Source of the DNA: Candidatus Adlerbacteria bacterium
GTDB lineage: Bacteria; Patescibacteriota; Minisyncoccia; Phycocordibacterales; SBAW01
Direction of reading: 5' to 3'
Assembly (NCBI GenBank): GCA_903900775.1
Contig: CAIUOD010000012.1
Coordinates: 1 to 33,112, forward strand
Length of the DNA: 33,112 nt
A program made the translations under genes and the position numbers. Numbering within the stretch: position 1 is the first letter of the stretch; each line of letters opens with the position of its first letter. The notes under the pieces were generated by a model. It saw nothing but the letters and a program-made list of their open reading frames with translations, had not been told where the DNA came from and did not search any database. Shown here piece after piece: positions 1,275 through 8,478 of the stretch.

Positions 1275-1345
1275 GGGCCCATAGTAAAGTGGTATTACGC
1301 GTCATTCGCATTGACGAGGCGGGAGTCCGATTCTCCCTGGGTCCA
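1275..1345 (+). tRNA. tRNA-Ala(CGC)
   Basis: GGGCCCA/TGGGTCC acceptor with G3:U70 alanine identity pair, anticodon arm CGTCA-TTCGCAT-TGACG, T arm GGGAG-TCCGATT-CTCCC. Confidence 0.93.
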
Positions 1346-2843
1346 CTCTGGTAGACAAAGGTGACAGAATTAGCTCTTTCGCCTTGAAAACACTTGATAC
1401 TTCAGGAGTTCCAAATATCTGGCCGTTAAAGACGATACCGGAGGGGAATTGGAACCACTGGAGCTTCGTTTGTGTTGTAATTCCTGACTTTTTCCATACC
1501 GTGCTCGGTCGCTCCAGATACTCTGATGCAAAAGCCACGGCGTCCTCTGGAGACCCCACATCGCTTGTCTGCGTGATGAGGGTTGTCCGTATTTCTGCCT
1601 CCGTCTTTTCTATGCGTGCCAGCTCTCGTTGAAGCACGGCATCACTCAGGACGCCTTTTATATTCTTGTGCACGAGTGCGGTCTGCTCCTCGGCCAGTTC
1701 TTTGAGACGGACTTCTAGTGCGTGAATCTCTTTCTGTTCATCCACGGTAGCGTCGTGGAATTTCTCGCGCACTAAGCGCTTGAGCTTCGCGATGTCAGAG
1801 CTCTCAAAACGATAGGTATCCATCTTAAACGCAAATTGTCGTTGAAGCTCGTCGCGGTCGTAATTCCCCTTTGCGCCATTGAATCGGTAGGAAGGATATT
1901 TCCCTCGGGCAAAACTACCAGTCAGTTTCAATCCGTCTGGATTGAATACAAAGCGTCTCAGCGGGAACTCGGGATTATCCGTCTTGTATTGCGATACTTT
2001 GTGCCCCTTATTCTTAAGAACTCGCTGGGCTTGTGCGAACAGATCGTCACCTACTATAGGTTCGAATGTACCCTTATGATGTTCTCCAAACTTTTCAATC
2101 CAACCCGTATACAGTTCGTTTCGGAGCATCTTGTAGAAATAGCTTTTTGCGACAGGTTCGCCATTCTTTTTTAGCAGTCCTTCTTTGCGCATCATCCGCC
2201 AAACCTCATCGGTTGGATAGGTCGCAGCCGCGACCAATTCAAACGCTCGCTTAACAAGCGGGGACATCTCGCTCGGCGCAATTGTGGCCTTGTCTCCAAC
2301 TCGCACGTTGGCATAGCCAACAGGGGCGGCCCAGACGTAACGTCCAGAGCGTACTGCTTCGAGCATGCCGTTCGAACACCGCTCAGCGCGGACATCGTTA
2401 TCGAACTGTGCAATGTTTGCCATCGTGTTTTCCATAAAGCGTCCTGCGGGATTATTTTCAAAGAATTCGGTAGTGGATTTTATTTCTACACCGTACCGCT
2501 TCAGCAAAATGCGGAGTTGGCTGTAATCGTCGGTATTGCGCGAGAGACGGTCAATTTTATACACAATCACTGCAGAGATTGCGCTTTTCTTTTGGGCACA
2601 AAAACCGAGCATCTTTTGGAGTTGTGTGCGGTCTGCGGTTTTAGCACTTTCGCCGCGCTCGATGAATACCCCGTCCTCGGGTATCACAAAGCCCGCTTTG
2701 TTTGCATACTCTCGGCAGGCTTTCTCTTGAGTTATTAGAGAGTTGCCCTCGTCAGCTTGCTCCATCGTGGAGACGCGCACGTAGATAACAGCTCGCTTGT
2801 TATTTTGCTGTATGTTTGGTTTGTGCATTCCTTTTTTGCTCAA
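1302..2843 (-). CDS. Large serine recombinase / site-specific integrase 1
   Basis: N-terminal resolvase fold AVIYVRVSTMEQADEGNSLITQEKACREYANKAG, ...VYKIDRLSRNTDDY, plus Recombinase domain (APVGYANVR) and coiled coil. C-terminus is encoded antisense through the tRNA-Ala 3' half. Confidence 0.93.
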   Translation of the reverse strand: MSKKGMHKPNIQQNNKRAVIYVRVSTMEQADEGNSLITQEKACREYANKAGFVIPEDGVFIERGESAKTADRTQLQKMLGFCAQKKSAISAVIVYKIDRLSRNTDDYSQLRILLKRYGVEIKSTTEFFENNPAGRFMENTMANIAQFDNDVRAERCSNGMLEAVRSGRYVWAAPVGYANVRVGDKATIAPSEMSPLVKRAFELVAAATYPTDEVWRMMRKEGLLKKNGEPVAKSYFYKMLRNELYTGWIEKFGEHHKGTFEPIVGDDLFAQAQRVLKNKGHKVSQYKTDNPEFPLRRFVFNPDGLKLTGSFARGKYPSYRFNGAKGNYDRDELQRQFAFKMDTYRFESSDIAKLKRLVREKFHDATVDEQKEIHALEVRLKELAEEQTALVHKNIKGVLSDAVLQRELARIEKTEAEIRTTLITQTSDVGSPEDAVAFASEYLERPSTVWKKSGITTQTKLQWFQFPSGIVFNGQIFGTPEVSSVFKAKELILSPLSTRVDPGRIGLPPRQCE

Positions 2844-2964
2844 AATAGGCTTCTACAAGAACTTTTGCGAGATAAGCCAGAGCCTCATCCTCTGAGCTGA
2901 GTATACCCCTGCTCTCAGGGGTCGCAGTTCCCGTGCCTCGTAGTTTTTGTACTCCAGACAGCAT
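2800..2964 (-). CDS. Short ORF upstream of and overlapping integrase 1
   Basis: MLSGVQKLRGTGTATPESRGILSSEDEALAYLAKVLVEAYFEQKRNAQTKHTAK; start lies just after the stop of the 2970..3341 ORF and the ORF overlaps the integrase start by 44 bp, an arrangement suggesting translational coupling. Confidence 0.6.
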   Translation of the reverse strand: MLSGVQKLRGTGTATPESRGILSSEDEALAYLAKVLVEAYFEQKRNAQTKHTAK

Positions 2965-2969
2965 AGGAA

Positions 2970-3236
2970 CTAGACGGCCTTGTTTCCGCCTCGCTGCGGG
3001 TCTTCTAGGGCCTGTTTTCTGCTCTCCACAGGGCAGGAGAGAGCGACAAGGTGTTTGAGAATCGCCCGCTTGTCCCTTCGTTGGTAGTCCTCTCGGTCGA
3101 CCAGCCGATTGAACCAACGATGAATCATGCCAACGCTGAAGCGCTGCTCTCTTATGGCGGCCCCAAAATTAAGAAGGCTACTATGAAATGGGCGTTTCCG
3201 CTGGAAACTATTAAATCTATGTTCAATGCTCCTCAT
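2970..3236 (-). CDS. Hypothetical protein, first ORF of the integrase 1 operon
   Basis: Internal ATG of the 2970..3341 ORF, immediately after the structured leader: MRSIEHRFNSFQRKRPFHSSLLNFGAAIREQRFSVGMIHRWFNRLVDREDYQRRDKRAILKHLVALSCPVESRKQALEDPQRGGNKAV. Confidence 0.5.
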   Translation of the reverse strand: MRSIEHRFNSFQRKRPFHSSLLNFGAAIREQRFSVGMIHRWFNRLVDREDYQRRDKRAILKHLVALSCPVESRKQALEDPQRGGNKAV

Positions 3237-3239
3237 GTG

Positions 3240-3324
3240 AGAAGCCCGCTCCTTCTTGGACAGGTTCTCTACGCCTGGTGGGGCGACCTGTCCAGAAAGC
3301 AACGGGCTTCTGGTGGCGTAGAGA
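3240..3324 (-). promoter_or_regulatory. Extended hairpin with 10-bp pseudoknot in the integrase-operon leader
   Basis: AGAAGCCCG/CGGGCTTCT, CTTTC/GAAGG, TGGACAGGT/ACCTGTCCA nested stems; 10 nt of the apical loop complement TCTCTACGCC located 5' of the hairpin on the minus strand. AAGGAG lies in the 3' arm, upstream of ATG 3236. Confidence 0.65.
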
Positions 3325-3402
3325 TTGTGCCTCTTGTTCAAAAGGAAAAGGCTGCTAGCATCATCTCGCTATAACCAGCCGACTCGGTAACCTATTCGGT
3401 TT

Positions 3403-3941: not shown

Positions 3942-4125
3942 ACAACTGAATAAAGGGCCTAACCCGTAGCTTTCTGCGGCAAGGTCGAAAACCGGTAAGA
4001 GGTGGAAAACCCATCTTGTAGGGCTACTCTTACCGGTCTCCGCGGGAAACTGCGGATGGACGGCGGAAGCCGTCACCTACGAGGTGGGCTTTGCGGTTTT
4101 ATGCCAAGCTGCCCCGTATTTAGCA
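3942..4125 (+). ncRNA. Structured RNA A, leader of a secreted-protein operon; same family as RNA B
   Basis: 5' ACAACTGAATA; P1 GGCCT/AGGTC around an inner hairpin; P2 ACCGGTAAGAG/CTCTTACCGGT; P3 TCCGC-GGGAAACT-GCGGA; P4 GACGGC-GGAA-GCCGTC; 3' GGGCTTTGCGGTTTTA hairpin and AGCTGC/GCAGCT hairpin. Confidence 0.75.
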
Positions 4126-5652: not shown

Positions 5653-7326
5653 TCATACACGCGCAAAAGAACCCCACGGTATAGGGCTTTCTTTTTCACC
5701 TTTTAATATCTCTACGAGGCGATTACACTCTAAAGCAAAGGAGTTCCAGAATATAGAACCGCAGTCCACCGAGTCATAGTCAGAGGCCACAAGTTCCTCA
5801 AAAAGCCTTGTGACGCTTAGCTCGTCGCCAGTTCGATAAGCATCTTTTTTATCGTAGGGTAATCTCGCTTCGAAAAGGAAATAAAACAGTCGGTGTTTTT
5901 CTCGGACGTCTACACTTTTCCAAACATCATAAGGACTTTTGAACAATCCCATAACTTTGCCCAGGGCAGTTCGATAAGGCACATCTAGGTCAGCTTTACT
6001 AAGCGGCATTTCGAGCCCATCCAGTTCGTTGGTGGCTTCTTCGATCTGCGATTCGTAAGCTCTTCGGACGGCTTCAGATTGTGCCTGGTGGGCGAGATCA
6101 GCCAATCCAGCTACTTTCTCCTTTAAGACCTTCCTGCGCTGTTCTAGGCGCACTTCTTGCTCTGCTAGGGCTTTTATTTCCTGTCTCCATACCCGCTCAA
6201 AGGCCAACTGAATGACCGGCTCGACTTTTATCTTAAGACGGTTGCGTCTTACGAGAGTTTCGAAATTATCTTCCACGTCTTTTTTGCGAAGGGTCTTATG
6301 GCGCAAAGGGCACCCCTTGCTGTTTTGGCAGTAGTAGTGTGCGTAGGTATGCTTTTTATGCCACGCTCCAGTAAGCGGCTTGTTGCACCCTGGGCAGAGA
6401 AGCAGGCCACGCAAGGGGAAGTCATCAGAAATATCCAGACGTTCCCGTGTGCCGGCAACAGCTTTCTTCATGCGGCCTTGTATGCGCTCAAAAGTCTCGC
6501 AGGAAATAAGAGCCTGATGATGCCCTCTGCGTCTGCTAACTTCCCATGGCAAATACTCAATGTCGCCACAGTAGAATGGGTCTTGCAACATCTCTTTCAC
6601 TCGGTTTAGTGCTCGTTCGGGCGAACAGCTTTTACCCCAAAAGCTACGCTCAACAAAATATTTAGCCACATCAATCTGCCGTAGAAACTTCCCAGAGGCG
6701 AAACCCTCAAGAGCGATGCGGATAACCTCAGCGTCTTTGTTGGGGGTGGCTAGTTTGCCATGAACGGAATCTGACACCATGTCATAGCCTCTTTTGCTAG
6801 AAAAAGCCCAATAGCCACGCTCTAGACGAGCTTTTGTTTTTTGAATAACTTGGCGGCGATTTTGCTTGCGCTCGAGCTGAGCCTGTCCGGCAAAAATTAA
6901 CTCGGCAAACTCTCCCTCTGGGCTATCATCGAAATTATGATTAAGACAACGCAGAATAACATCGCGCCCCCTGAAGGCATCCTTCAACTTGAAGTGAAAA
7001 ATAAAATCGCGAGCGAAGCGCTTTAGATCATCAAAAACCACCACAAATTTTTTTTGAGGATGGGCATCAATATATGCCAGTAGCTCTCGCATAGCCGGTC
7101 GATTCATAAAATCGCCGGCTCCAGTAAAACTGTCCCGAAAGGTAAACAGATAGGGGACGCCGATAGATTGTAAATCCTTTACACAGCGCCCGTCTTGGCT
7201 CTGTAGACCAGAACCCTCAGTTTCCTGCTTTTTACTCGACACACGGGCGTACACAAGTCCCACTCGCCCCTCAAAAGGATTTACTATATCTGCCCGCTGG
7301 TATTTAACGCTTTGACTGTTTTGCAT
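5653..7326 (-). CDS. Large serine recombinase / site-specific integrase 2 with zinc ribbon
   Basis: VGLVYARVSSKKQETEGSGLQSQ..., FDDLKRFARDF, GYDMV; zinc ribbon LRGLLLCPGCNKPLTGAWHKKHTYAHYYCQNSKGC. Confidence 0.93.
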   Translation of the reverse strand: MQNSQSVKYQRADIVNPFEGRVGLVYARVSSKKQETEGSGLQSQDGRCVKDLQSIGVPYLFTFRDSFTGAGDFMNRPAMRELLAYIDAHPQKKFVVVFDDLKRFARDFIFHFKLKDAFRGRDVILRCLNHNFDDSPEGEFAELIFAGQAQLERKQNRRQVIQKTKARLERGYWAFSSKRGYDMVSDSVHGKLATPNKDAEVIRIALEGFASGKFLRQIDVAKYFVERSFWGKSCSPERALNRVKEMLQDPFYCGDIEYLPWEVSRRRGHHQALISCETFERIQGRMKKAVAGTRERLDISDDFPLRGLLLCPGCNKPLTGAWHKKHTYAHYYCQNSKGCPLRHKTLRKKDVEDNFETLVRRNRLKIKVEPVIQLAFERVWRQEIKALAEQEVRLEQRRKVLKEKVAGLADLAHQAQSEAVRRAYESQIEEATNELDGLEMPLSKADLDVPYRTALGKVMGLFKSPYDVWKSVDVREKHRLFYFLFEARLPYDKKDAYRTGDELSVTRLFEELVASDYDSVDCGSIFWNSFALECNRLVEILKGEKESPIPWGSFARV

Positions 7327-7513
7327 AATTTTTAAGCTCTGCTCGTATCACGCTCCTACAGAATGACTCGATGTATTCTAAACGTTGAATGATTTGTTCG
7401 GCCGTGCTCTCGTGATCATTCAACAGTTTTCTGTATTCAACAACCGTGAGTACGCTCTCTCTGGTAGAGAGTATATCAGCGCCCTTCCCGTTAAGTTTTT
7501 GGGCACAAGCCAT
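7304..7513 (-). CDS. Short ORF upstream of and overlapping integrase 2
   Basis: MACAQKLNGKGADILSTRESVLTVVEYRKLLNDHESTAEQIIQRLEYIESFCRSVIRAELKNYAKQSKR; overlaps the integrase start by 23 bp. Confidence 0.65.
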   Translation of the reverse strand: MACAQKLNGKGADILSTRESVLTVVEYRKLLNDHESTAEQIIQRLEYIESFCRSVIRAELKNYAKQSKR

Positions 7514-8288: not shown

Positions 8289-8478
8289 ACAACTGAATAT
8301 ACCTGGCCTAAACTAGCGGCTCTAGCCCTAGCATGGCCTTAAATCGACGTGAATATAAACCCCGTTATCAGGGCGTTCACGTCGTTGCATGGGGAAACTC
8401 ATGCAGAGGCCGCAAGGCCTTCCTGGTAGCGGGCTTTGTGTTTTAAAAATACACAAGGCCACTGCCAAATTAGTGGCC
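8289..8478 (+). ncRNA. Structured RNA B, leader of a secreted-protease operon; same family as RNA A
   Basis: 5' ACAACTGAATA; P1 GGCC/GGCC with CCTAAAC..CATGG; P2 CGACGTGAA/TTCACGTCG; P3 TGCATG-GGGAAACT-CATGCA; P4 AGGCC-GCAA-GGCCT; GGGCTTTGTGTTTTA hairpin; final GGCCACT/AGTGGCC hairpin followed by TAATTTTT. Confidence 0.75.

Follow-up and report, generated by a model that had tools for sequence, protein, structure and literature searches.

A candidate regulatory leader RNA with a covarying pseudoknot upstream of integrase and replication-type operons in Patescibacteria

A structured element at positions 3240-3324 of a 33,112-nucleotide stretch of Candidatus Adlerbacteria DNA (contig CAIUOD010000012.1; the whole stretch is called the window here) is confirmed as a real feature, and it represents what is apparently a new, conserved and undescribed RNA family of Patescibacteria mobile elements. 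We propose that it is a cis-acting leader RNA in which a pseudoknot helix, S1, and the fully closed form of a long hairpin, S2, would compete and so gate translation of the operon that follows, a reading to which we assign a probability of about 0.5. Direct support was obtained for the structure of the RNA strand, the covariation of both helices, the place of the element before mobile-element operons, the terminator-like hairpin upstream of it and its association with LOOT RNA. Patescibacteria are ultra-small bacteria whose mobile elements have been little characterised, and to our knowledge no control of the integrases and replicases of these elements has been described.

Results

A repeat search of the window returned inverted-repeat arms at 3240-3265 and 3286-3311 (26 nt, 85% complementary). 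The minus-strand RNA was predicted to fold at -48.8 kcal/mol (z -6.0), and none of 200 dinucleotide shuffles folded as well; the plus strand of the leader was likewise stable (z -4.3). The parts of the leader, which is single-copy in the genome of the window, and the features around it are collected in Table 1. An earlier reading of the sequence alone had described a stacked hairpin made of three clean helices (23 bp in total). The hairpin is real and lies on the minus strand as claimed, but it is better described as 25 stacked positions on a base of GAAGCCC/GGGCTTC, among which are a single conserved G-G mismatch and a single C-A, with U-G pairs both in the lower and in the middle part of the stem. 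That reading had also noticed that the apical loop holds a perfect complement of an upstream segment, and the two segments do match over all 10 nt (TCTCTACGCC, 3324-3315, with GGCGTAGAGA, 3275-3266). The loop can pair, with covariation among the homologues, with a segment outside its own hairpin, as in an H-type pseudoknot.

Table 1 Features of the leader RNA and its surroundings in the window
Feature	Positions	Strand	Remarks
Leader RNA core, S1a - L1 - S2a - L2 - S1b - S2b	3241-3324	-	84 nt; 69.5 bits with the R3 covariance model, which has the window among its 22 sequences
S1a, 5' strand of pseudoknot helix, TCTCTACGCC	3315-3324	-	Complement of 3266-3275
L1 linker, ACCA	3311-3314	-	4 nt; 0-15 nt in other members, median about 5
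S2a, 5' arm of long hairpin, GAAGCCCGTTGCTTTCTGGACAGGT	3286-3310	-	Repeat search, folding, decomposition, alignment
L2, part of apical loop, CGCCCCACCA	3276-3285	-	Local CGCC/GGCG stem possible in the window sequence
S1b, 3' strand of pseudoknot helix, GGCGTAGAGA	3266-3275	-	Directly abuts S2b
S2b, 3' arm of long hairpin, ACCTGTCCAAGAAGGAGCGGGCTTC	3241-3265	-	Repeat search, folding, decomposition, alignment
ORF1, first operon gene, MRSIEHRF...	2970-3236	-	88 aa; homologues in L080, L083 and L099; no Pfam family
ORF2, small protein, MLSGVQKLRG...	2800-2964	-	54 aa; start inferred; no Pfam family
Large serine recombinase (integrase 1)	1302-2843	-	Pfam Resolvase 1e-31, Recombinase 1e-9
Intrinsic-terminator-like hairpin, GGCTGGTTATAGCGAGATGATGCTAGCAGCC + TTTTCCTTTT	3340-3380	-	Ends 15 nt before S1a
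LOOT RNA (RF03000), divergent	3956-4074	+	632 nt upstream of the leader; 72.4 bits
Second LOOT RNA (RF03000)	8305-8421	+	Rfam scan

Blastn of 99 relatives gave one convincing match, at 71% identity, in a congeneric genome (G027), which keeps both the hairpin and the pseudoknot by compensatory changes, TCCTGACGC/GCGTCAGGA replacing TCTCTACGCC/GGCGTAGAGA, and in which the leader is followed by the ATG of a small ORF and by a serine recombinase. A covariance model built from this match and the window returned further cases within the order, and models of 12 and then 22 sequences widened the set to the class and the phylum. These searches yielded 32 further Patescibacteria loci with the same element and hence a family of at least 33 loci, the 33 members being those that remained, window included, after inspection of the model matches. 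Some of the first matches lay on the strand opposite the RNA, and their orientation was corrected from the position of S1 and of the start codon that follows; candidates L058-L062 and L048 were rejected as ordinary terminators or chance. The prevalence of the leader was low (17 of 397 sampled genomes of the order). Scanning 85,462 species genomes for a single consensus motif produced 21 matches, a result that does not prove absence elsewhere. Six of them also fitted the covariance model and were all from Patescibacteria, including Parcubacteria SURF_41 and SURF_53, Nealsonbacteria, Staskawiczbacteria and Kaiserbacteria (two of the six were identical in sequence to existing members); the other 15, in other groups, were unsupported by the model.

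Viral contigs yielded nothing in a protein-level search for the integrase and no matches in exact-pattern scans, and DNA similarity in plasmid and phage collections yielded nothing credible. When the window and 20 loci were scanned with Rfam 15, only tRNA and LOOT exceeded the gathering threshold, never at the leader, for which the best sub-threshold match was a microRNA model (20.5 of 70 bits); the LOOT model RF03000 did not match the leader at gathering score, and its matches lie beside it. A literature search of incomplete coverage returned no match for such a leader.

Both helices covary. In the 22-sequence alignment 94.2% of the S2 cells were paired and 16 of 22 pairs had changed on both sides, which none of 500 shuffles matched, while sliding the partner by 1-3 columns as a control reduced pairing to 35-54%; these statistics lean towards S2 because the sequences had been found with a model of S2. 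S1 gives independent support, because no model encoded it as paired. It is present in all 33 members, weakly so in a few (L032, L046 and L100), and at nine anchored positions 94% of its cells were paired, compared to 47% when S1b was swapped between members (maximum 62% in 1000 swaps). Double changes were found at all nine positions, and 20 distinct S1a sequences occurred in 22 members. Taken singly, 16 of the 23 members found first had an S1 above the 99th percentile of shuffled loops. In alignment A3, the lower stem keeps a U-G wobble in 18 of 22 sequences, followed by an invariant U-A pair in 22 of 22 (columns 33/88).

The mispairs of S2 identify the strand that folds. Read on the minus strand, G-T outnumbered A-C by 50 to 13 among the members found first and by 74 to 22 over all members; the p value of 1.5e-6 for the former count treats the members as independent, which is only partly true. 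This excess of G·U over A·C points to the strand of the integrase mRNA, i.e. the operon sense. The sequence-only reading had made the same argument from the window, where a pair is G-U on the minus strand and C-A on the plus strand, and the argument proved to be general. The check that it had proposed, a search for homologous leaders with covariation upstream of CPR serine recombinases, is answered by the covariation of the two helices.

The conserved structure lies immediately 5' of genes and in their orientation, as is characteristic of leader RNAs, and it is not specific to serine integrases. Serine recombinases follow it in the window and in L002, L023, L026, L031, L034, L039, L044, L080, L083 and L096-L100; tyrosine recombinases (Pfam match 4e-10), preceded by a small protein that is HTH-like or of another kind, in L027, L028, L030, L032 and L033; and replication-type proteins in L041 (NrS-1-type polymerase domain), L045 (HTH_36) and L101 (Lin1244_N). 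The downstream proteins of L029, L042, L043 and L077, which had no Pfam match or were not scanned, look like replication proteins. Because the first genes belong to several unrelated families, the product of ORF1 is unlikely to be a common regulator.

Small proteins with a helix of the type 'LTDEEA...LR..LY' were seen directly before integrase or replication genes in L023, L030, L031, L039, L041, L045, L046, L047, L056, L079 and L100, and the two that were tested had no Pfam match. The window also encodes a second large serine recombinase (5653-7326, minus strand), preceded by a small ORF (7304-7513, minus strand) similar to the gene that directly follows the leader in L002; the covariance model detected no leader RNA there. 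A tRNA-Ala(CGC) gene (1275-1346, plus strand) and the 3' end of the integrase 1 gene overlap, which suggests tRNA-gene integration by the serine recombinase; no further copy of the 3' end of this tRNA was found within the window.

Upstream of the leader, positions 3340-3380 of the window form a G+C-rich hairpin followed by a T run, at which termination is predicted. Terminator-like hairpins with a T run were found upstream in 26 of the 33 members, compared to 19 of 515 control windows (3.7%), and in most of the 26 the hairpin ends shortly upstream of S1a. The interval from the terminator to S1a mostly offers no room for an ordinary promoter, and none was located there. Of 28 genomes with the leader, 11 had a LOOT RNA in the 2 kb upstream of it, eight of these on the opposite strand; the expected number is 0.19 at a uniform LOOT density, an assumption that ignores clustering in mobile elements.

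The relation of the hairpin to the first start codon varies. An ATG follows the end of S2 by 0-5 nt in 19 of the 33 members, where closure of the hairpin should impede initiation. The distance is 13-34 nt in 12 others, and occlusion of the start codon is thus not universal. Two members had no ATG within the stretch examined. The window has its ATG at 3236-3234, where the sequence-only reading had put it, and AAGGAG is indeed found in the 3' arm, but at a distance of 12 nt from the ATG and without conservation among the members: an SD-like (AGGA-type) sequence was present in the 3' arm of only five of 33 members. Sequestration of the ribosome-binding site, as that reading had proposed, would therefore hold for the window but, given this count and the distant ATGs, is not supported as a rule for the family.

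Discussion

The geometry of the leader is what suggests a switch. S1b and S2b are separated by zero nt in 24 of 33 members, and in a crude distance model a full S2 together with a coaxial S1 was sterically allowed in one of 33 and with a permissive, folded-back S1 in 10 of 33. Given so short an L1, formation of S1 would usually rule out complete closure of S2. The two helices also differ in composition, S1 being nearly pure Watson-Crick (G-U in 7 of 313 compared to 74 of 621 in S2, p 1e-7).

We propose that the long hairpin S2 is the default fold, which ends near the first start codon and should limit the access of ribosomes. As S1a, S2a and S1b are transcribed before S2b, S1 could form first, with S2a in its loop and the start region free, and would then delay or prevent closure of the lower stem beside the start codon. 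The outcome would be a time-limited or factor-dependent window of expression. Regulation in cis, action at the translational level and the use of S1/S2 competition as a switch are the parts of this model that we infer. A regulatory function of the leader, probably in the timing of integrase or replication gene expression, is likely; for the specific translational switch between S1 and S2 the odds are close to even or somewhat short of it.

Two further ideas were abandoned. A local apical stem, P3, in competition with S1 had no covariation support (swap p 0.32). A balance between the stabilities of S1 and the lower stem was significant in the first 23 members (rho 0.60) and was dropped because it was not replicated in 10 new ones (rho -0.20).

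The element might instead act as single- or double-stranded DNA, as an origin, a transfer or recombination site or a protein-bound inverted repeat next to its integrase or replication gene. We regard this as improbable. Its occurrence beside integrases and replication-type genes alike, the variable distance to the ATG and the almost strictly Watson-Crick S1, as expected of inverted copies of a binding site, would fit such a site. The excess of G-T over A-C on one strand would be unexpected of double-stranded DNA, though folded single-stranded DNA would show it; furthermore, serine recombinases, tyrosine recombinases and several replication-type proteins have no known type of site in common, S1b is locked directly against S2b in most members, and the element points into the operon.

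The chances are similarly poor that the leader acts mainly on transcription or RNA stability, be it by attenuation in concert with the terminator upstream, by shielding the RNA from 5' decay or by providing a processing site. The frequent terminator-like hairpin and T run would favour it, but they lie upstream of S1a, so that a transcript stopping there contains no leader. U-rich tails after S2 in several members, and start codons that are not always adjacent, are also in its favour; in many members, the window included, the tail is not U-rich. A metabolite-sensing riboswitch or a ribozyme, which the conserved, complex fold with its pseudoknot might bring to mind, is very unlikely: L1 and L2 vary in length and sequence, no conserved unpaired bases occur in L1, L2 or S1 that could form an aptamer core, the only conserved unpaired or wobble positions are the internal G-G/C-A and the U-G site of S2, and Rfam gave no match.

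Lastly, a chance palindrome, or coding constraint on the N-terminal part of a long ORF that would begin with TTG at 3341, can be dismissed even though this frame is open through the hairpin in the window, since S2 and S1 covary, most members carry in-frame stops inside the leader, and the ORF1 homologues in L080, L083 and L099 (58, 49 and 39% identity) have the same first residue, the alignment beginning with the ATG at 3236 after the hairpin, which excludes a coding N-terminus. Conservation of protein sequence through the hairpin, named by the sequence-only reading as the observation that would count against it, was looked for and is not what the homologues display, and its proposal of a structured, non-coding minus-strand leader of the integrase operon stands.

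Several known systems resemble the proposed leader RNA in part. Metastable leader folds limit translation to nascent or processed RNA in the maturation gene of phage MS2 and in hok/sok-type mRNAs. The type I toxin mRNAs of Helicobacter belong to the same group (e.g. PMC6733600). In the proposed model, as by analogy in these leaders, an early 5' helix would compete against a hairpin of greater stability whose closure blocks the start region. Unlike in MS2 and the toxin mRNAs, the competing helices of the patescibacterial leader share no nucleotides and would compete by linker length; the leader is found in another host phylum and before different genes. The repZ gene of IncI, IncB and IncL plasmids has a pseudoknot near a downstream ribosome-binding site that is countered by an antisense RNA. 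The likeness lies in a hairpin loop that pairs with a distant segment and would, here as a proposal, control a key gene of a mobile replicon, whereas the patescibacterial S1a precedes its hairpin, and the analysis identified no antisense RNA. Integron attC sites are likewise imperfect hairpins beside a recombinase gene, but the leader occurs with serine recombinases and replication-type genes, in single copy upstream of a start codon, and the attC core boxes RYYYAAC/GTTRRRY were absent when the base of S2 was read for them. LOOT RNA, a structured RNA of the same mobile elements, differs from the leader in sequence and structure and is mostly on the opposite strand.

Conclusions

At its broadest, and doubtful at present, our interpretation would be that mobile elements of Patescibacteria use one portable RNA switch for integrases and replication proteins that are unrelated to each other, that its early, strictly complementary helix holds the start region open until the 25-bp hairpin closes, and that, placed behind a terminator and often opposite LOOT, it would form with LOOT a hub of two RNAs timing integration and replication. 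If one leader serves both integrase types, serine and tyrosine, as well as replication-type genes, it would amount to a portable control module and a usable marker for finding mobile elements in Patescibacteria. The orphan LOOT RNA would gain a concrete genetic context, which would make the functions of both RNAs testable.
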